Assembly (NCBI GenBank): GCA_022822005.1 | Contig: JAJECO010000001.1 | Span: 1 to 64,000, forward strand | Reading direction: 5' to 3' | From: Candidatus Poribacteria bacterium | GTDB lineage: Bacteria; Poribacteria; WGA-4E; PCPOR2b | Length of the DNA: 64,000 nt | Shown here: one piece after another, positions 3,619 to 36,568 of the stretch | How positions within the stretch are numbered: the stretch's first letter is position 1 | Layout: the number at the start of each line of letters is the position of its first letter | Position numbers and translations under genes: made by a program | Notes under the pieces: model-generated | What the model was told of the DNA's origin: nothing | Databases searched by the model: none | What the model saw: the letters and a program-made list of their open reading frames with translations, nothing else

Positions 3619-4407
3619 GTGTCATCAAGATTAGAAGGTAAGGTTGCAATTGTCACAGGCGGAAACAGCGGTATCGGTAAGGCAACTGCTCATCTCTTTG
3701 CCCAAGAAGGCGCGAAAGTCGTCATTATGGCAAGAAGGGAGGAGGAGGGCGCTCAAGTTCAGGACGCTATCAATAGCGAGGGTGGCGAAGCCACGTTCAT
3801 TCGCTGCGATGTCTCGGACAGTAGTGCGGTTGATTCGGCGGTCGAAGCAGCCGTCTCAAAATACGGTACGATCAATATCCTCTTTAACAACGCAGGCGGC
3901 GGCGCTGGCGAGAATTTCCCGAACGAAGGAGATGAGGGGTGGGATCGGGTGATTAACGTCAACTTGTCAGGCACCTTCTACATGTCACGAGCGGTCTGGT
4001 CCCACATGGTAGACGCAGGCGGTGGCGCTATAGTCAATAACTCCTCTATTGCCGCTGTCATTGGATTTAGCAAGAACATGTACGATATAACCGGCGGAAC
4101 ACCATCGTCCTCATATTATGTGGCAAAAGCGGGTGTCGAGGCTTTTACACGATACACATCGAGTACGGGCGGACAGCATAATATCCGAGTCAACTGCGTA
4201 CGTCCCGGTCAAATCCTCACCCCGGGGGCGACCGGCGGTAGAGAACATCACTACTTCAAACCAATCTTCGATCTGGCACAGATACTTGACGGTCCGGGTT
4301 ATCCGGAAGATGTAGCGAATTTAGTGCTTTTTCTTGTTGCCGATGAGTCCCGGTTCATAACGGGAGAAATTATAAACATTGATGGTGGCACCCCACGAAA
4401 GCTGTAA
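3619..4407 (+). CDS. SDR family NAD(P)-dependent oxidoreductase
   Basis: A classical short-chain dehydrogenase of 262 residues. Visible are the nucleotide-binding TGGNSGIG (13-20), the NNAGG motif (91-95), catalytic Ser at 142/143 in NNSSIA, the active-site Y166-x-x-x-K170, and the PG turn near 196 that leads into the cofactor loop. R39 after the second strand hints at NADP preference, a weak inference. GTG is the start, placed by aaaggaga six bases upstream. A small insertion (about 150-162, SKNMYDITGGTPS) precedes the catalytic Tyr. The substrate is unknown. It stands between two repeat-rich spacers, so it may be a single-gene unit. Confidence 0.88.
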   Translation: MSSRLEGKVAIVTGGNSGIGKATAHLFAQEGAKVVIMARREEEGAQVQDAINSEGGEATFIRCDVSDSSAVDSAVEAAVSKYGTINILFNNAGGGAGENFPNEGDEGWDRVINVNLSGTFYMSRAVWSHMVDAGGGAIVNNSSIAAVIGFSKNMYDITGGTPSSSYYVAKAGVEAFTRYTSSTGGQHNIRVNCVRPGQILTPGATGGREHHYFKPIFDLAQILDGPGYPEDVANLVLFLVADESRFITGEIINIDGGTPRKL

Positions 4408-4455
4408 AAAAAACGTCGCTTATGTAAAAAGAAAGTGCAAAATATGAAGCGAAAT

Positions 4456-4544
4456 CGTAGGGGCGGGGTTCCCCCGCCCGTGGCACATCCCGATTTATCG
4501 GGGATTTATCGGGGCAGTAAGGGTTGGGTGACCCAACTCCTACG
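4456..4544. repeat. Palindromic spacer repeat, GTAGGGG family
   Basis: The element is bounded by cgtagg (4456-4461) and cctacg (4539-4544) and contains internal inverted repeats: ggcggg/cccgcc, two tandem cgatttatcgggg-type units, and gttgggtgacccaac. It fills most of the 200-base gap between the SDR and ThDP-enzyme genes. Confidence 0.7.
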
Positions 4545-4610
4545 AAAACTCGGTTGCTGTTGCACTAATTCTGAACATGGGCGAAAATCGTTCCTACAGG
4601 AGAAAACAGT

Positions 4611-6284
4611 ATGCCTACAATGACAGGAAGTAAATTTCTTGCGGATACAGTCCACGGTTACGGGATTACCCACGTCTTTTTTATGCCCTACATCGCGCCT
4701 CGAGCGCTGATGGAGATGGAAAAACTGGGGATAAAGCGCGTTCAAACCCACGGAGAAAAAGGCGCCGCATACATGGCAGATGCCTACGCCCGCGTCAACC
4801 GTGCTCCCAGCCTCTGTATGGCACAGTCGGTGGGTGCGGTCAACCTCGCCGCCGGATTACAGGATGCATACCTGGCATGTTCTCCGGTCATCGCTATCAC
4901 CGGACGGGAGAGCCAGATCAACCAACAGCGCCACGCGTATCAAGAGGTCGATCACATCAATCCGTTTTCAGCGGTGACCAAATATAGCGCGTTTGTCGCT
5001 ACGCCGGAACAGTTCCCGGTCTACCTGCGCCAAGCCTTCCGTTCCGCGACTTCTGGCACACCGGGACCGGTACACCTGGATCTGGAAGGCCTCGCCGGTC
5101 AGGCGGTCGTAGATCGCGAAGCGGATCTGGAAGTTATCATCGAAGAGCCTTTCACTCAACTCCCACCTTTCCGACCGGAAGCGGAGATCGAAAAAGTGAA
5201 AGAAGCGATCGAGCTACTCGCTGACGCCAAACGTCCCATCATCGTCGCTGGCGGGGGTGTGACCGCGTCAGACGCTCGCGCCGAACTGATTGCTTTAGCA
5301 GAGAAACTCTCGATCCCGGTTGCGACCGCTCTCAATGCAAAGGCGATGTTCCCGCACGACCATCCGCTGGCGGTCGGCGTCCCCGGTTCATATTCGCGGG
5401 ATTGCGCCAACCAAGCGGTCTGCGAGGCAGATCTGGTGTTCTTCATCGGGAGTCATACCGGCGGACAGGTGACCAATGGATATAGTATCCCACCGCAGGG
5501 AACGCCGGTTATTCAACTCGACATTAACCCAGAGGAACTGGGGCGCAATTACTCAATTCAGTTAGGGATGCAGGGCGACATTAGAAACTCGCTGCGCCGC
5601 ATGATTGACGCCGCAGAAGCCGTTGAACCGCGAACTGAGTGGATCACTCAAGTGCAGGAACTGGTTCGGAACTGGAAAGAGAGCGTCAGCGACGTGGCAA
5701 ACTCGGATATCGTACCGATGCGCCCGGAACGTCTCTGTAAAGAGCTGACCGACTATCTGCCCTCCGACGCAATTCTGGTCTCCGACACAGGGCATTCCGG
5801 TGTCTGGACCGGCACGATGCTCGATCTCAAACATCCCGACCAGATATTCATTCGTTGTTCAGGCTCGCTTGGATGGGGACTGCCTGCGGCGATGGGTGCC
5901 AAATGTGCAAAACCGGATAGACCCGTGCTCTGCTTCACCGGCGACGGCGGCATCTGGTATCATCTGGGAGATTTGGAGACCGCCGTGAAATCCGAAATTA
6001 ACGCCGTCATTCTGGTCAACAACAACCACTCCTTGAACCAAGAGCAGGGCGGTGTCGAGTCTGTCTACGGTGGACGGACAAAAGGTTCCGATGAACTCTG
6101 GCTGTTCCCCGACGCAGATTTCGCCAAAATCGCCGAATCGATGGGTTGTCTCGGAATTACGGTCAACAAACCGAGCGAACTTTCGAGTGCGTTGGACCAG
6201 GCTTTCTCCGCAGAGAGGCCGGTCGTTGTCGATGTAAAAACGCACGTCGAAGGGATTGCCCCGCGGGCATGGAGTCCCTCATAA
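4611..6284 (+). CDS. Thiamine diphosphate-dependent enzyme, acetolactate synthase-like
   Basis: A 557-residue ThDP enzyme with the three usual domains: pyrimidine-binding (about 5-170), central (195-330) and pyrophosphate-binding (370-545). E49 in THGEKG is the conserved Glu that activates the cofactor. GDGG (444-447) with N470-N472 forms the metal/ThDP motif. It resembles the large subunit of acetolactate synthase and benzoylformate or sulfoacetaldehyde-type decarboxylases; no acetolactate synthase regulatory subunit or branched-chain gene is near, so a catabolic 2-oxo-acid role is more likely. The ATG follows acaggagaaaac. The exact reaction cannot be assigned. Confidence 0.85.
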   Translation: MPTMTGSKFLADTVHGYGITHVFFMPYIAPRALMEMEKLGIKRVQTHGEKGAAYMADAYARVNRAPSLCMAQSVGAVNLAAGLQDAYLACSPVIAITGRESQINQQRHAYQEVDHINPFSAVTKYSAFVATPEQFPVYLRQAFRSATSGTPGPVHLDLEGLAGQAVVDREADLEVIIEEPFTQLPPFRPEAEIEKVKEAIELLADAKRPIIVAGGGVTASDARAELIALAEKLSIPVATALNAKAMFPHDHPLAVGVPGSYSRDCANQAVCEADLVFFIGSHTGGQVTNGYSIPPQGTPVIQLDINPEELGRNYSIQLGMQGDIRNSLRRMIDAAEAVEPRTEWITQVQELVRNWKESVSDVANSDIVPMRPERLCKELTDYLPSDAILVSDTGHSGVWTGTMLDLKHPDQIFIRCSGSLGWGLPAAMGAKCAKPDRPVLCFTGDGGIWYHLGDLETAVKSEINAVILVNNNHSLNQEQGGVESVYGGRTKGSDELWLFPDADFAKIAESMGCLGITVNKPSELSSALDQAFSAERPVVVDVKTHVEGIAPRAWSPS

Positions 6285-29396: not shown

Positions 29397-30599
29397 ATGG
29401 CTACAGTAACAATTAAAGATGTTCAGACAATTACAACGCAACCGGCTGGTTCACGGCTAATCATTGTCAAAATTATCACCTCGGAACCGGGGCTGTACGG
29501 CTTGGGGTGTGCGACCTTTACGCAGCGATACAACGCCGTTGTAACCGCGATGGAAAAACATTTGAAACCGTTCCTGATCGGACGCGATGTCTCCCGCATC
29601 GAAGAGATCTGGCAGATGGGGATGGTGCATAGCTACTGGCGAAACGGACCGGTTTTAAGCAACGCGATTTCTGGCGCAGATCAGGCGCTATGGGATATCA
29701 AAGGGAAACAGGCGGGAATGCCGGTCTACGAGCTTCTGGGCGGAAAATGCCGTGAAGCGGCTGCGGTCTACGGACATGCAGGCGGCAACTCACCCGAAGC
29801 GGTTGCTGATAGCGTCCGACAATTTATGGAAAATGGATACCGTTACATTCGGATTCAGATGGGCGGCTACGGTGGCGAAGCAAGCCGAATTGTTAAACCG
29901 GAAGGCGCGCCGGACGGGGCATACTTCGATCCACGGGAATACACGCAGAATATGTTGCGGATGATTGAGCATGTCCGATCTGAAGTGGGAGATGAGGCTG
30001 AACTGTTGCACGATATCCATGAGCGGCTGCACCCCATTGATGCGGTGAAGTTCGCCAAGGATGTGGAACCGTTCAATCTTTTCTTTCTCGAAGATCCACT
30101 TGCCCCGGAGGATTTGGAATGGTTCACCAACATGCGCCAGCAGTGTTGTACCCCGATCGCAATGGGTGAACTGTTTAACAATCCCCGCGAGTGGCAACCG
30201 TTAATCGCCGGTCGCCTGATTGACTTTATCCGGATGCATGTCAGCCAGATGGGTGGAATAACACCTGCACGTCATGTAGCGGCATTCGCCAACATGTACG
30301 GTGTCCGCACCGCGTGGCACGGTCCCGGTGACACATCGCCGGTGGGACATGCCGCAAACTTGCATCTCGACCTATGGGCACCAAACTTCGGGATTCAGGA
30401 ATGGTGCAACTTCCCGGAGCATGTGTATGAAATTTTCCCCGGTCTGCCGGAAGTCCGCAATGGGTACATGTATCCCAGCGACAAACCGGGTTTAGGAATC
30501 GACATCAACGAGGATCTGGCAGCGAAATATCCGTGTCAGGACGAGGTTGAGTGGTGGACACAGACCCGCTTGCCGGATGGCAGCCCGACCCGTCCTTAA
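29397..30599 (+). CDS. Enolase-superfamily sugar-acid dehydratase (ManD/RspA group)
   Basis: A 400-residue mandelate racemase/muconate lactonizing-type enzyme of the D-mannonate dehydratase subgroup. The magnesium ligands are D206, E232 and E258, the catalytic His of this subgroup is H208 in HDIHERLHP, and H308 in AWHGPGDTSP is the second barrel His. It should dehydrate a D-mannonate- or D-gluconate-like acid to a 2-keto-3-deoxy acid. Many RspA-group enzymes have weak activity, so flux is uncertain. It is followed 55 bases later by a UxuA-family gene. Confidence 0.85.
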   Translation: MATVTIKDVQTITTQPAGSRLIIVKIITSEPGLYGLGCATFTQRYNAVVTAMEKHLKPFLIGRDVSRIEEIWQMGMVHSYWRNGPVLSNAISGADQALWDIKGKQAGMPVYELLGGKCREAAAVYGHAGGNSPEAVADSVRQFMENGYRYIRIQMGGYGGEASRIVKPEGAPDGAYFDPREYTQNMLRMIEHVRSEVGDEAELLHDIHERLHPIDAVKFAKDVEPFNLFFLEDPLAPEDLEWFTNMRQQCCTPIAMGELFNNPREWQPLIAGRLIDFIRMHVSQMGGITPARHVAAFANMYGVRTAWHGPGDTSPVGHAANLHLDLWAPNFGIQEWCNFPEHVYEIFPGLPEVRNGYMYPSDKPGLGIDINEDLAAKYPCQDEVEWWTQTRLPDGSPTRP

Positions 30600-30607
30600 A
30601 ATAGTTT

Positions 30608-30633
30608 TCACGTTTCACGAATCACGTTTCACG
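30608..30633. repeat. Short tandem repeat between dehydratase genes
   Basis: Two copies of tcacgtttcacg (30608-30619 and 30622-30633), two bases apart, lie just ahead of the UxuA-family ribosome site. They could be a remnant of a spacer repeat or a regulatory tandem site. No known motif was matched. Confidence 0.5.
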
Positions 30634-30654
30634 CACCAATCAAAGGAGTTCAAA

Positions 30655-31644
30655 ATGCACGTTGGCACACAGAACATTTCAGGAGATAACTGGGACGCTT
30701 ACAAGGTATTGCCCCAGTTAGGTGTAAATCATGTTTCATCCAACCCGCCCGGTAACTGGCTGGACTGGGATGCAGACTCTCTATCGCAGTTTAAGGAGAA
30801 ATTAGCCTCCTTAGACATTTCGCTTGATATGATGATTTTGCCGTTGGCATCAGGACCTGCGAGGACCCAAGGTGCACCTCACGTTTTTCTCGGTCCAAGT
30901 CCAGAACGGGATCGGGAGATTGACCAAATCTGTGACCTGATCCGCAATATGTCGCGGGCGGGAATACCTGCTGGACGATACAATATCACAATTCTCGGCC
31001 ATCTACGGACAGAAAGGCGGTTTGGACGGGGCGGCGCGAGTTTGTCATCGTTTGAGTACCATAAACTTGACCAGACGCTGGGCGATTTTGAAGACGGTCC
31101 CGCCGACGCGGACGAGATGTGGGAGCGAATCGACTACTTCCTTTCGCGGGTTGTCCCCGTGGCAGAGGAGTACAAGGTACGGCTGGCTTGCCACCCACAG
31201 GATCCGAGTATCGGTGATCGGTTATACCGGGGTGTTGCCAGAGTCATGGGCACGGTTGAAGGCTTCAAGAAATTCATCGAAATGCATGAGAGCCCTTACC
31301 ATGGGTTGAACTTTTGCATCGGAACGATGTCGGAATCGCTGGAGAATCCGGGTGAGGAGATCTACGACGTTATCCGCTATTTCGGCGAGCGGAAGAAGTT
31401 GTTTAACATCCACTTCCGCAATATCAAGGGCGGTCTCCTCGATTTTGTTGAGGTGTTCCCAGACGAAGGCGACGTGAATATGCTCAAGGCATTGCGCACT
31501 CTCAAAGAGGTTGACTATCCGTATATGGTGATGCCAGACCATGTGCCGGGGATTACGGGCGACAATCCCAGCGGCGTTGGGTTCGGATATTGCTTCGGTT
31601 ATATCCATGCGTTGATGCAGGCGATTAACGAACCCTCGGCATAG
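30655..31644 (+). CDS. UxuA-family mannonate dehydratase
   Basis: A 329-residue TIM-barrel, metal-dependent dehydratase of the UxuA group. Recognisable motifs are ACHPQDP (H180), LNFCIGT (C221), NIHFRNIKG (H253), the DEGDVNM segment (270-276) and VMPDHVP (D295, H296), which supply the Mn/Fe site. ATG 30655 follows caaaggag; an in-frame start at 30547 would overlap the previous gene. The product of D-mannonate dehydration is 2-keto-3-deoxygluconate. No KDG kinase or aldolase follows. A shortened member: E. coli UxuA is about 394 residues. Confidence 0.85.
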   Translation: MHVGTQNISGDNWDAYKVLPQLGVNHVSSNPPGNWLDWDADSLSQFKEKLASLDISLDMMILPLASGPARTQGAPHVFLGPSPERDREIDQICDLIRNMSRAGIPAGRYNITILGHLRTERRFGRGGASLSSFEYHKLDQTLGDFEDGPADADEMWERIDYFLSRVVPVAEEYKVRLACHPQDPSIGDRLYRGVARVMGTVEGFKKFIEMHESPYHGLNFCIGTMSESLENPGEEIYDVIRYFGERKKLFNIHFRNIKGGLLDFVEVFPDEGDVNMLKALRTLKEVDYPYMVMPDHVPGITGDNPSGVGFGYCFGYIHALMQAINEPSA

Positions 31645-31743
31645 GCGTATTCGCTGTAAGAGCGGGTTTACTCCATAGTCATCAAGTTAAAGATCTCAAA
31701 GAATTTCAAGGCGATTTATAGATTTTCATAGAGAGGTGCTGTT

Positions 31744-34700
31744 GTGACGACTCAGCCGAACTGGGACGAATTGCGGGATGCTGCACTCGCCGATAATACT
31801 GCACAGGGAATCTTAAAGTATCTAAGAGAATTGAAATCAAATCGTACGGCTATGCGTACGCGATGGATTTGGGAACTCTTTCAAAACGCACGGGACGCTT
31901 CTATTGATGCTGATACACCCCTTATCGTCTCCGTTGAGTACGAACGGGGAGATATTATCTTTCGGCATAATGGACGTGGGTTCGCTGCTAGTGAAATAAC
32001 CCACCTCATCCATCACGGCTCAACAAAAGTAGAAACAGACGAGGCAATCGGCAAATTTGGTAGTGGTTTTCTCACGACGCATTTATTGTCGTCGGAAATT
32101 AATGTCTCCGGTCAGCTTGACACGGGCCGGTCATTTGAATTTCGCTTGAAGCGTGAGGACAGTTCGGTTGCAGAACTTCGTGATTCTATGGACGAGTCAT
32201 GGAATGATTTCAAACATTCTCTATCGTCTCTCTGTACACAATCTTTGCCTAGTAACTTCACTACCCAATTTCAATACCCTATCTTGGACGGTGTGAGTGA
32301 TGTAGTTAATGAAGGCCTCACAATGCTGAAGCGATGCGCTCCTTTTGTCATCGTTTTTAATAAGGAGTTTTCATATATTGACGTCAAAACGCCTGACGGA
32401 ATTGGGATCTTTAAAGTGGCCAAGCGTACACAGTTGTCACATGTTGGATGGGAAATTAGGGTGTCAGAGAATAAAAATGGAAATTGGAAAGACAAGGTGT
32501 ACCTTTTGGCAGAAGGCAAAAAAACTTCCGTTGCTATTCCTCTAGAAGATGATGGCCAGGCATGTTTACTAGTCAATAGCATACCTCGACTTTTCTTAGG
32601 ATTTCCCTTAGTGGGGACTGAGGAATTCAGTTTCCCTGCAATTATCAATAGCTTTAAATTTTCGCCAACAGAAAATCGTGATGGCGTGTATCTAGGGGAA
32701 GATGATGACGCGAACAGCAAGAACGAAGCTATCATCGAAGAAGCCTGTGAGCTTCTTGTTAGTCTGCTCCACGTCGCAGCATCAGCCGGCTGGCGCAACA
32801 TTTATGCCTTGGCAGATATTCCGCAGGTCAATGAACAGAATCAGAAAAAAAAGCAATGGATTCAAAAATGCCTTAATAAACAGCTTATAGAAAAAATCCG
32901 CCAAACTTCCGCAGTTCTTAATGAGGATGGGGAGAAGATAAACCCAGATGAATTAAAATTGCCGTTCGCAGAGACAACCACGGGCACAGAAACTCTCTGG
33001 GATTTGTTGGACGGATGTCAGGATTGCCGTGAGATATTACCGAGGCAGAGTGAAGCCATTGGCTGGTGGAATGCTGTCAAGAGTTGGGTTGATATATGTG
33101 GAAGCGATAGGACTTCCTTTGATGAAGTAATTGATGGCGGCAAACTGGCGCTGCTCATTCAGAGCAAAGCCAATAGCGTAGAAAGTTTGCAAGGTTTTCT
33201 CCGAGATGGTATTTGTGCAATAGAATGGCTGGATCGTTTCTATACCTTTCTCCAATCGGATAGACAGTATGAAGTAGTCCGTACTTATTCCATTATTCCT
33301 AACCAAAGCGGCGAGTTGGATAAACTTTCTAACCTGTACCGCGATCAAGACATAGACGAAGAACTGAAAGATATCGCAGAATTGCTTGGCGGTAATATCC
33401 GACGAGAACTTCGCGATAAGCGACTTTATTCCCTAGTCAACGAAGTTGGTGCTGGAGATAGGACAAGGGAAGATGTCGTTCAAAAATTGATTACACAACT
33501 CCGAGAACACGTTGAAAAGGCTGCTGAAAAAGATCTAGATGACAACTTCAAGAAGGCAAGCGCACGCCTCTTTGCTTGGCTGGTTAATCAAGAGGACTGG
33601 AATCGCTTACAGGGATTCTCTGTGTTCGCAATAGATGGCAATTCCGTTCTTGATCTGCCGACCGCTCACGGTGGAGAGCCGCCGTTGGCACCGATCTGTG
33701 TATGGCCAGAAGGTTTGAAACAGTTCGCCGATCTTTTTCCACCCGACCGCATTTTAGCTGATGATTTCAAGGTATGCGCTCCGGAAGCATGGGAACAACT
33801 TGATAAACAGGGACTTATTAGAAACTCTATGGTAATCACTTACAATGAGAAGAATCTCAAAGCATTGTCTCCAGACTTGAATCAGGAAGCGGAAGACGTG
33901 AATCAGGGGGAATCAACTCACGAAGCTGTGCATTGTATCACTGCCACAGATGTTGTAGAACGGGACGCAATCATGGACCGGGTGCGCAATAGGCCGAAGC
34001 GTGCTTTCCTATTCTGGCGGTTTCTCACAGAGTGGCTTATCAAAGAGTATGGTCAAGGTATGGAGATTCAAGAGGCACTCTGTACATGTAAAGAAACTCA
34101 CGAATACTATCCGGCTGCATGGCTAATACCAGTGCGAAATAAAAGTTGGATTCGACTAGAGGGAAGTAACACACGCGTCCGTGCAGACGCTCAGCGGCTT
34201 GCTAACTTGCTTCGAAATAATGAATGGGCCCCCGGATCCCTGAGTAAAAACCCCGCTGCCATCAAACTACTAAAAGCAATCGGTGTGGAACGCTTCGACC
34301 TGATGCGACAACTTGCCGCGGAAGACGATGATGCTCGCGTAGCGATGGATAGTGCTTTCATAGATATGTTGTCCACAGTTGAAGGGGAGGTAAACTATCT
34401 CAAGCGTGCGCGTGAATATATAGAAGATCTGAAAAACGACGAAAATCTCCCCGATGTTCTCGAAAAGCGTCGCAAACAAAGAAAAAGAGTGGCAGAGAAT
34501 CAGTACTTAGGAAAACGGATAGAACAGCTAGTAAAGGAGAGTCTTGAGGAGATAGGTTTCGACGTAAATCGGAAACCCATCGGTTCGGACTTCGAGATCG
34601 AACATGATTTGGTTGAAAACGACGAGGAAATAGGCATCGAATTGGTTCAAGGACGCCAAAGTTGGCTGATTGAAGTAAAGGCAACACGAGGAAAGGAAGT

Positions 34701-35028
34701 CCGAATGACTTTTACCCAAGCAAAAACCGCTGTTGAGCAGAAAGATAATTTTCTGCTTTGTGTCGTTCCGCTAGACCTTGAAGATATTGAGGGAGAATTA
34801 GACACTGTTAGAACCAAGATGCGGTTTGTAACAGATATTGGTTCCCAAATAGATCAATTGTGCAAAAACCTCGACGCATTTGAGCAATTACGGGATGATA
34901 TTACTGCTGGTAACGATTCTGGTGTTCGGTTGGAAGTCATACTCGGTACAGCGGGGATTCGTGTTGCCCATACCTTATGGGAAGATGAGGGATTACCACT
35001 GGAAACCCTAGGCGATTACCTGAAGTAA
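31744..35028 (+). CDS. Sacsin-like GHKL ATPase with C-terminal DUF3883/PD-(D/E)XK nuclease-like domain
   Basis: A 1094-residue protein. The N-terminus (about 20-200) is a GHKL ATPase of the sacsin/HSP90-like type: E44-LFQ-N48-ARDA is the N-box, H75-N-G-R-G-F the second box with His where HSP90 and MutL have Asp, and GKFGSGF (103-109) the lid glycines. The middle 650 residues are helix-rich and unrecognised. The C-terminus (about 920-1030) is DUF3883-like: E927, D949 in GSDFEIE, and E977-V-K979 in LIEVKAT form a PD-(D/E)XK nuclease pattern. Start is GTG after gagaggt. It is visibly more A/T-rich than its sugar-metabolism neighbours. This pairing is known from defence-island proteins; a defence role is inference. 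Confidence 0.78.
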   Translation: MTTQPNWDELRDAALADNTAQGILKYLRELKSNRTAMRTRWIWELFQNARDASIDADTPLIVSVEYERGDIIFRHNGRGFAASEITHLIHHGSTKVETDEAIGKFGSGFLTTHLLSSEINVSGQLDTGRSFEFRLKREDSSVAELRDSMDESWNDFKHSLSSLCTQSLPSNFTTQFQYPILDGVSDVVNEGLTMLKRCAPFVIVFNKEFSYIDVKTPDGIGIFKVAKRTQLSHVGWEIRVSENKNGNWKDKVYLLAEGKKTSVAIPLEDDGQACLLVNSIPRLFLGFPLVGTEEFSFPAIINSFKFSPTENRDGVYLGEDDDANSKNEAIIEEACELLVSLLHVAASAGWRNIYALADIPQVNEQNQKKKQWIQKCLNKQLIEKIRQTSAVLNEDGEKINPDELKLPFAETTTGTETLWDLLDGCQDCREILPRQSEAIGWWNAVKSWVDICGSDRTSFDEVIDGGKLALLIQSKANSVESLQGFLRDGICAIEWLDRFYTFLQSDRQYEVVRTYSIIPNQSGELDKLSNLYRDQDIDEELKDIAELLGGNIRRELRDKRLYSLVNEVGAGDRTREDVVQKLITQLREHVEKAAEKDLDDNFKKASARLFAWLVNQEDWNRLQGFSVFAIDGNSVLDLPTAHGGEPPLAPICVWPEGLKQFADLFPPDRILADDFKVCAPEAWEQLDKQGLIRNSMVITYNEKNLKALSPDLNQEAEDVNQGESTHEAVHCITATDVVERDAIMDRVRNRPKRAFLFWRFLTEWLIKEYGQGMEIQEALCTCKETHEYYPAAWLIPVRNKSWIRLEGSNTRVRADAQRLANLLRNNEWAPGSLSKNPAAIKLLKAIGVERFDLMRQLAAEDDDARVAMDSAFIDMLSTVEGEVNYLKRAREYIEDLKNDENLPDVLEKRRKQRKRVAENQYLGKRIEQLVKESLEEIGFDVNRKPIGSDFEIEHDLVENDEEIGIELVQGRQSWLIEVKATRGKEVRMTFTQAKTAVEQKDNFLLCVVPLDLEDIEGELDTVRTKMRFVTDIGSQIDQLCKNLDAFEQLRDDITAGNDSGVRLEVILGTAGIRVAHTLWEDEGLPLETLGDYLK

Positions 35029-35031
35029 ATC

Positions 35032-35046
35032 GAGATTCGCAATCTC
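35032..35046 (+). terminator. Small terminator-like hairpin
   Basis: gagatt (35032-35037) pairs with aatctc (35041-35046), loop cgc, followed by atttgcttttt. It starts 4 bases after the stop of the GHKL-nuclease gene and would isolate it from the next operon. Confidence 0.45.
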
Positions 35047-35155
35047 ATTTGCTTTTTGGAATTAGATCCACCATCCGAGGGAAACAGCAGGCTATGAGGT
35101 TGCACTACAGGGCACTCAGTACAAGCTTTTATTTGTATTGGCTGGGAGAATAGAC

Positions 35156-36568
35156 ATGAGTCAAAAAGGATTCAACGTACCCGCGGATCAACGGCAGCTA
35201 TTTCTTGATGATGTTGGAATTGAACGCCTCGAAAACCTCACTCGGACGCTGCACCAACCTACCAAAAAAGGTGCAGTAGTTCGGAGCGCGAATCCGACCC
35301 AGACGATCCAAACGCGCGCGACACCGGCATGGGATCCAGAGGAAGAGGTCTACAAGTTCTGGGTCATCGGGACGGACGAGAGCTACCGCGTCAGTACGGA
35401 CGGTTTGCACTGGATTCCGGGACCTGAACCGAACATTGGGGGACCGATGGCGGTTCGTGACCCAAACGACCCGGATCCGAACAGACGATACAAAGGCGCG
35501 CTCCTCAACGCTGGCTTCGCAGTCTCACCGGACGGCGCGAGCTGGACGAAATTAGATGTCCCCGCTGTGCCAAGTTCGGATGAAGGGAACTTCTCCTACA
35601 ACGAAGCGGAGGGTCTGTTCATCCACACGGTAAAACGTTCGGGTCCCTACGGCAGATCGGTCGCCATGGCAACCAGCACGGACTTTGAGCATTGGGATGA
35701 TTATGGGCTTGTTTTCCACGCCGACGACGTGGATCAGGAGATGGGCAGAGATGTTATCGCAGCTCGGCTCGCCGATCCGAACCTCCGGCAAACGGAATAT
35801 AACACACCCGAACACTACAGTGTACAGATCTACAATATGGGTGTATTTCGATATGAGGGATTATATATCGGGTTGCCGTCCATGTATCATCACACCGGCA
35901 AAGTCCCTACCGATTGGCCCGGTTTTGACAGGCTGCGGCTGTCGCCATATATCCTGGAGTGTGTCAGGCAGTACGGCGACTATACCGGCTTCTACAACAT
36001 TCAGGTGACCTGCAGCCGTGATTTGAAAAACTGGATACGCGTTGGTGAACGCAAGCCGTTCATTGAAACTTCAACGTTGGGCGGTGGTGCTTACGATTTG
36101 CAAGGGTTGCTCGGTCCCTCAAACGCTGTCGTGCGAGGTGATGAACTATGGTTTTATTACACAGGAACTAAGCAGTACGCCTTCATCACCTCCGGCGACC
36201 TGCCCGGCTATGACGATTACTATCCCGATAGCGGCGCAGTCTGTTTAGCGGTCCTGCGGCGCGACGGGTTCATCTCCCTCGACGCTGGAAAAGAGGGTGG
36301 GACCATTTGTACGGAGTCTTTTACGCTGAACGGCGACCTGCTGTTCGTCAATGTCGATGTACCGAACGGCGAGTTAGGGATTGAAATGCTTTCCGCCGAT
36401 GGCGAGACGCTCGCCACCTCCGCCCGACTCCACGGTGACTATCCTGCTGCACGGATTGAGTGGACTGATGCAAATATCGCTCAATTTTTGGGACAAACTA
36501 TCCGCCTCCGCTTTGCCCTCCAAAACGGACAGTTTTACTCCTACTGGTTCGGTTCAACCTCGATTTAA
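35156..36568 (+). CDS. Beta-propeller glycosidase-like protein
   Basis: A 470-residue paralogue of the protein at 10614-12134. It shares the opening RQLFLDD block (about 9-15), propeller turns such as STDGLHW (about 79) and SPDGASW (about 123), the central N-R-R-Y-K-G-A-L segment, and the closing LRFALQNGQFYSYWF motif. Length and fold suggest a five-bladed propeller followed by a beta-sandwich. No signal peptide. ATG 35156 is used because gggag precedes it; TTG 35138 is weaker. It leads a five-gene plus-strand run ending in PhyH and epimerase genes. Activity unproven. Confidence 0.65.
   Translation: MSQKGFNVPADQRQLFLDDVGIERLENLTRTLHQPTKKGAVVRSANPTQTIQTRATPAWDPEEEVYKFWVIGTDESYRVSTDGLHWIPGPEPNIGGPMAVRDPNDPDPNRRYKGALLNAGFAVSPDGASWTKLDVPAVPSSDEGNFSYNEAEGLFIHTVKRSGPYGRSVAMATSTDFEHWDDYGLVFHADDVDQEMGRDVIAARLADPNLRQTEYNTPEHYSVQIYNMGVFRYEGLYIGLPSMYHHTGKVPTDWPGFDRLRLSPYILECVRQYGDYTGFYNIQVTCSRDLKNWIRVGERKPFIETSTLGGGAYDLQGLLGPSNAVVRGDELWFYYTGTKQYAFITSGDLPGYDDYYPDSGAVCLAVLRRDGFISLDAGKEGGTICTESFTLNGDLLFVNVDVPNGELGIEMLSADGETLATSARLHGDYPAARIEWTDANIAQFLGQTIRLRFALQNGQFYSYWFGSTSI

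Follow-up and report, generated by a model that had tools for sequence, protein, structure and literature searches.

A short-form Tiamat gene in a Candidatus Poribacteria genome, with a predicted HSP90-like ATPase and a predicted Holliday junction resolvase-like nuclease

Is a 3.3-kb gene for an apparent ATPase-nuclease fusion, lying by itself between genes of sugar metabolism, a defence gene, and if so, of what kind? The question was raised by an initial annotation of a 64,000-nucleotide stretch (the window) of contig JAJECO010000001.1 from a Candidatus Poribacteria bacterium, which proposed a stand-alone fusion of a GHKL ATPase with a PD-(D/E)XK nuclease as a candidate defence gene. The host belongs to a Poribacteria genus and is most likely a sponge symbiont.

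Identity of the gene and its family

The gene, designated tmtA, and its immediate surroundings comprise the following features.

30547-31644, forward strand: left flank, sugar-isomerase/epimerase-like gene with its true start probably at about 30655, conserved in all congeners
31645-31743, forward strand: leader separating tmtA from the upstream gene, with an RBS-like AGAGAGG, from sequence comparison with congeners
31744-35028, forward strand: tmtA (Tiamat family), 1,094 aa, GTG start, from PADLOC profile PDLC03967 (TmtA)
35022-35055, forward strand: hairpin resembling a terminator, which has a U run and overlaps the tmtA stop codon, from folding energy
35138-36568, forward strand: right flank, glycoside-hydrolase-like metabolic gene, conserved in all congeners

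The reading frame coincides exactly with the annotated 3.3-kb gene, having 1,094 codons, a GTG start and no internal stop, and occurs as a single copy in its 6.0-Mb, 97-contig genome (G000). The terminator-like hairpin that had been noted at its end was recovered as well (dG -12.0 kcal/mol, z -2.9). The start region, AGAGAGG followed by TTGTGAC, is the same in G000 and in the tmtA-bearing congener G002.

With the PADLOC profile PDLC03967 (TmtA) the protein gave a score of 646.7 bits (E 2.4e-194), the match covering residues 9-1094 of 1094 and profile positions 10-1057 of 1063. We take TmtA to be the protein of the Tiamat system, which is reportedly one of the antiphage systems of Millman et al. 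2022. PDLC03967 is the short TmtA profile (1,063 positions), whereas the seven others, of 1,302-1,782 positions, matched far more weakly and mostly over the ATPase. By its sequence, the window gene is a member of the TmtA/Tiamat family, and it is less novel than the term stand-alone fusion implies because this defence family had already been described: the fusion itself was borne out, but with a TmtA profile covering the protein, its reading as an orphan was rejected. The approximately 700 residues between the two ends, previously called unrecognised, fall within the same profile match, and the N-terminal half of the structural model resembles the N and middle domains of HSP90. In common with Tiamat, the window gene is a single large gene encoding an N-terminal GHKL ATPase, shows a patchy distribution and is matched over its full length by a family profile. 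The gene alone fills its slot in G000 and G002, and neighbours vary among the other loci, in keeping with a single-gene system that has no obligatory partner. It is best read as a new, apparently intact short-form Tiamat with a predicted antiphage role.

Predicted domains and conserved residues

Within the protein, the following parts and residue codons were assigned.

31765-32388, forward strand: GHKL/HSP90-like ATPase domain, about residues 8-215 (NF047352, HtpG profile match, Foldseek, conservation)
31873-31875, 31885-31887, 31966-31968 and 32050-32067, forward strand: codons of the ATPase residues E44, N48, H75 and G103-G108
32389-34455, forward strand: HSP90-middle-like part, then a long stretch of mainly helical structure, about residues 216-904 (Foldseek over about 550 columns, secondary structure)
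34456-35025, forward strand: PD-(D/E)XK nuclease domain, NOV_C/DUF3883-like, residues 905-1094 (Pfam, profile, Foldseek, model, conservation)
34522-34524, 34588-34590, 34672-34674, 34678-34680 and 34717-34719, forward strand: codons of the nuclease residues E927, D949, E977, K979 and Q992

The N-terminal ATPase that had been proposed from the residues E44, N48, H75NGRGF and GKFGSGF is supported by several lines of evidence. The NCBIfam model NF047352, 'sacsin N-terminal ATP-binding-like', matched at 61.3 bits (cut-off 50), and the motifs E44, N48, H75-N-G-R-G-F and G103..G106-S-G108 lie inside this match. A profile built from 23 homologues matched the N domain of HtpG/HSP90 (E 0.0012); in this match ELLQNArDa stands opposite ELISNASDA, and FrhnGrgF opposite ISDNGVGM. 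The AlphaFold model of the full protein (pLDDT 82.7) was matched to full-length HSP90 by Foldseek with an E value of 9e-8 and a probability of 1.00 over about 550 columns and, therefore, the HSP90 likeness reaches the middle domain. Whole-chain TM-scores between the model and HSP90 were low (0.2-0.4), as expected if the angles between domains differ or are mispredicted, and the pTM of 0.59 leaves the domain arrangement in the full model uncertain. All 23 homologues, at 26-51% identity, have E44, N48, G77, G103, G106 and G108 without exception. The region of about residues 216-904 is a putative sensor or transducer.

In HSP90, the Asp of the DxGxG motif contacts adenine. While the ATPase motif set is present, with N-box and glycine-rich motif, its G1 box reads HNGRGF and is not the canonical DxGxG: the position aligned to the HtpG Asp is His (H75) in 22 of the 23 homologues, and in 34 distant relatives His is conserved there at a level of at least 90%. 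Judged by this conservation, H75 is a family-wide trait and not a lesion. The exchange may have changed the nucleotide preference, and ATP binding is not to be assumed since the adenine-binding Asp is replaced. TmtA shares with HSP90/HtpG the N-terminal ATPase fold, the arrangement of N and middle parts, the E and N of the N-box and the glycine-rich lid motif, but differs in this His, in its C-terminal nuclease and in that no HSP90 dimerisation domain was identified.

At the C-terminus, the nuclease pattern D949...E977-x-K979 had been placed in a DUF3883-like domain. The label held in part: Pfam NOV_C (DUF3883, PF13020) scored 21.0 bits against the window protein, just under the cut-off of 22.1, but was matched by 13 of the 23 homologues at E<1e-3. 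In the literature, DUF3883 is classed among restriction-endonuclease domains by one survey (PMC3710099). Modelled alone, residues 905-1094 (pLDDT 83.5, pTM 0.80) have in the predicted models the alpha-beta-beta-beta-alpha-beta topology of the PD-(D/E)XK core, in which a single strand bears both E977 and K979, while E927 belongs to the first helix and Q992 to a later one; the loop bearing D949 is of low confidence in the models. The nuclease fold was recovered, and its residues are conserved down to homologues of 26% identity, E927, G947, E977, K979 and Q992 being invariant in 23 of 23 and D949 being kept in 22.

The best Foldseek matches of this domain were archaeal Holliday junction resolvases (Hjc 1gef, E 2.2e-4; 2eo0, 8.9e-4; 1ob8, 9.5e-4; all with probability 1.00), followed by RecU and then by weaker matches to defence nucleases, among them the PD-(D/E)XK proteins SPARDA DREN and Lamassu LmuA (9qbp, 9ux7). 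Independently, the sequence profile matched the Hjc structure 2eo0 (E 0.0024) across the catalytic core. The domain has the fold and catalytic motif of archaeal Hjc/Hje resolvases, but is fused to a 900-residue ATPase/helical part and carries additional C-terminal strands and helices. The sensors of SPARDA and Lamassu, an Argonaute and an SMC-like protein, are both unrelated to the putative sensor part of TmtA.

As the closest solved folds are the Holliday junction resolvases Hjc and RecU and the Hjc profile match spans the catalytic core, the protein might be a Tiamat-family barrier to plasmids, integrating elements and incoming DNA generally, whose Hjc-like nuclease would cut branched or replicating DNA without a phage trigger. 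We consider this unlikely: fold likeness within the PD-(D/E)XK group does not predict the substrate, and published lists (PMC10482375, PMC12926258) count Tiamat among the antiphage systems whose mechanism is unknown.

In more distant Tiamat-like proteins (L094-L140), a module matching residues of about 470-620 is repeated two or three times, and the NOV_C nuclease was detectable in only 8 of 34. By these sequences, the C-terminal effector may be swapped or lost within the Tiamat family.

Horizontal transfer and allele exchange in one slot

The initial annotation had described the gene as more A/T-rich than its neighbours, and the difference proved large. Compared to 39 other genes of the window, tmtA has a GC content of 0.452 versus 0.534 (SD 0.017) and a GC3 of 0.421 versus 0.578 (SD 0.034), that is, 4.8 and 4.6 SD below, respectively, and of the 40 genes it departs furthest in codon usage. 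A tmtA match occurred in 19 of 98 related genomes (order and beyond). In the tree, a Poribacteria copy joins a Gemmatimonadota copy with a support of 100/100, and copies from Chloroflexota and one gammaproteobacterium are placed among those of Poribacteria, a mixing of phyla which mis-binned metagenome contigs could explain in part or in single cases. GC content was 0.504 in the Chloroflexota copy and 0.646 in its flanks, and 0.458 and 0.644 in the gammaproteobacterial copy and flanks. Composition and distribution make it clear that tmtA is horizontally acquired, mobile cargo.

With respect to the vehicle, a phage or viral origin is not supported: no tmtA homologue was found in 50,697 phage records or in viral contigs, and plasmids yielded only three partial matches, and no match for the nuclease domain alone. 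Integration marked by a tRNA or by terminal repeats was likewise rejected, as the window contains no tRNA and no direct repeats bracketing tmtA were found.

The slot itself was compared among congeners. In G003, G004 and, as far as sequenced, G005 it is empty, and the flanking genes adjoin with about 40-60 bp between them. G002 carries in the same slot a TmtA of 52% identity, while its flank proteins are 92-99% identical; between G000 and G002, DNA identity falls abruptly at both edges of tmtA. Identity at fourfold-degenerate sites is 0.44 in tmtA versus 0.70-0.83 in the flanking genes at 29397, 30547 and 35138; the gene that follows, at 36381, has 0.67. Because it is low in tmtA compared to the flanks, the two alleles probably diverged much earlier than the flanks. 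A sister relation of G000 and G002 was not rejected by an AU test (p 0.24), and the tree neither supports nor rejects it. Fast evolution of the G002 allele in situ is disfavoured as a full explanation, since divergence at fourfold sites (identity 0.44) is as great as that from other families. The leader shows 77% identity over 65 bp between G000 and G002 and is absent from the empty slots; this common leader suggests that a single insertion came first and that the allele was replaced later.

The G002 gene (L061, G002:C90, 10001-13282) appears to be a mosaic. Over most of the first five eighths it is closer to a Caldilineaceae copy, and over the last two eighths to a Poribacteria copy of a different family, with a fourfold identity in the seventh eighth of 0.74 over 38 sites versus about 0.4 elsewhere. 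This pattern in the DNA suggests recombination of nuclease ends. In the fifth congener, G001 (L041, 3812-6000), the slot is occupied by a minus-strand ORF for a TolB-like beta-propeller (3938-4960) together with A/T-richer sequence of about 1 kb, and no tmtA remnant was found there; the slot seems prone to insertion. In G002 a frame change splits the sugar-isomerase-like gene on the left, and in G005 this gene is interrupted, unless these are assembly errors.

These observations bear on what kind of protein TmtA is. Like sacsin and NO VEIN of eukaryotes, it has a sacsin-type ATPase above the cut-off and a NOV_C-like C-terminus, and Tiamat profiles match plant proteins, too (PMC12409356), all of which would fit a cellular stress, chaperone or repair protein with no immune role. 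The window protein differs, however, in being bacterial and mobile and in showing no Pfam match to the HEPN and J domains of the sacsin C-terminus or to a ubiquitin-like domain, its C-terminus being a PD-(D/E)XK nuclease. Patchy presence, allele swaps in one slot, outlying composition and spread across phyla are unlike a housekeeping gene, and we regard a purely cellular role as improbable.

The tmtA copies at three loci (L062, L074, L085) are broken into two or three frames, by decay or assembly error. Such copies, together with the departure of H75 from the canonical Asp, would be expected if tmtA were decaying or inactive cargo with a dead ATPase or nuclease. For the window gene this is very improbable: the copy is intact, every catalytic residue is kept, and H75 is family-wide. 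Both the stress or repair role and the loss of activity are thus disfavoured by the intact catalytic residues and the mobile behaviour.

Genomic neighbours and proposed function

Among the 44 other genes of the window, no other convincing defence gene was identified; the only hits were two of a generic kind to HEAT repeats and a weak one to SspA, and a partner gene in the window was rejected. Elsewhere, homologues are not confined to housekeeping contexts. At one locus a protein of 678 aa that carries a ThsB-like TIR domain (L062:13389-15425) lies 88 bp downstream of the tmtA copy, which is possibly a two-gene arrangement, and at another the PADLOC candidate PDC-M68B (L071:8090-9973; E 3e-204) ends 12 bp upstream of tmtA. 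Further neighbours of homologues are a Dsr1-like gene (L070), a methyltransferase (L076), an SNF2/PLD helicase (L079) and a type IIG restriction-modification gene (L075). The search for defence neighbours was therefore positive for some homologues but not for the window, and 104 control ORFs picked arbitrarily from elsewhere in related genomes also included type I methyltransferase, DISARM-like and other PADLOC matches. Since control regions hold many such matches, we claim no enrichment. For sponge symbionts, an overall abundance of defence genes has been reported (PMC5099237).

Taken together, the TmtA profile, the fold searches at both ends, the catalytic conservation and the horizontal transfer support the candidate defence role, with a putative antiphage activity. 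We favour, with moderate confidence, the reading of tmtA as a Tiamat-family antiphage system that consists of one gene, was acquired horizontally and is apparently functional, with an HSP90-like clamp gating a DNase. The N-terminal nucleotide-dependent clamp and the middle/helical region would act as infection sensor and gate; sensing would lead to a conformational change by which the C-terminal Hjc-like PD-(D/E)XK domain is released or aligned; and the aligned nuclease would cut DNA, either that of the phage or all DNA in an abortive response. Family membership, predicted folds, catalytic conservation and horizontal transfer were computed here, and gating by ATP or a similar nucleotide, the DNA substrate, the trigger and the protection from phage are what we infer.

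A more specific version of this gated clamp is offered as a speculation that we rate as rather doubtful. Tiamat may be a nucleotide-gated nuclease whose HSP90-like clamp, with a base site altered by the conserved His, responds to a phage cue or to a nucleotide state that is not the standard one, and so permits Hjc-like cutting of replicating or branched phage DNA, and whose whole alleles and nuclease ends recombine into fixed chromosomal slots across the phyla of sponge symbionts. If true, Tiamat would be an immune switch built on the HSP90 fold and would differ from the known pairs of P-loop ATPase and nuclease.

The empty slot and the swapped alleles provide a clean natural case in which a defence gene moves on its own between metabolic genes, away from any obvious island, and the family-wide Asp-to-His exchange in the nucleotide site is a specific and checkable oddity. 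In the short-form Tiamat, both ends are readable, as an HSP90-like clamp and as an Hjc-like nuclease with strictly conserved catalytic residues. These readable domains turn the 'mechanism unknown' of Tiamat into testable point mutants at E44, N48, H75, E977 and K979.
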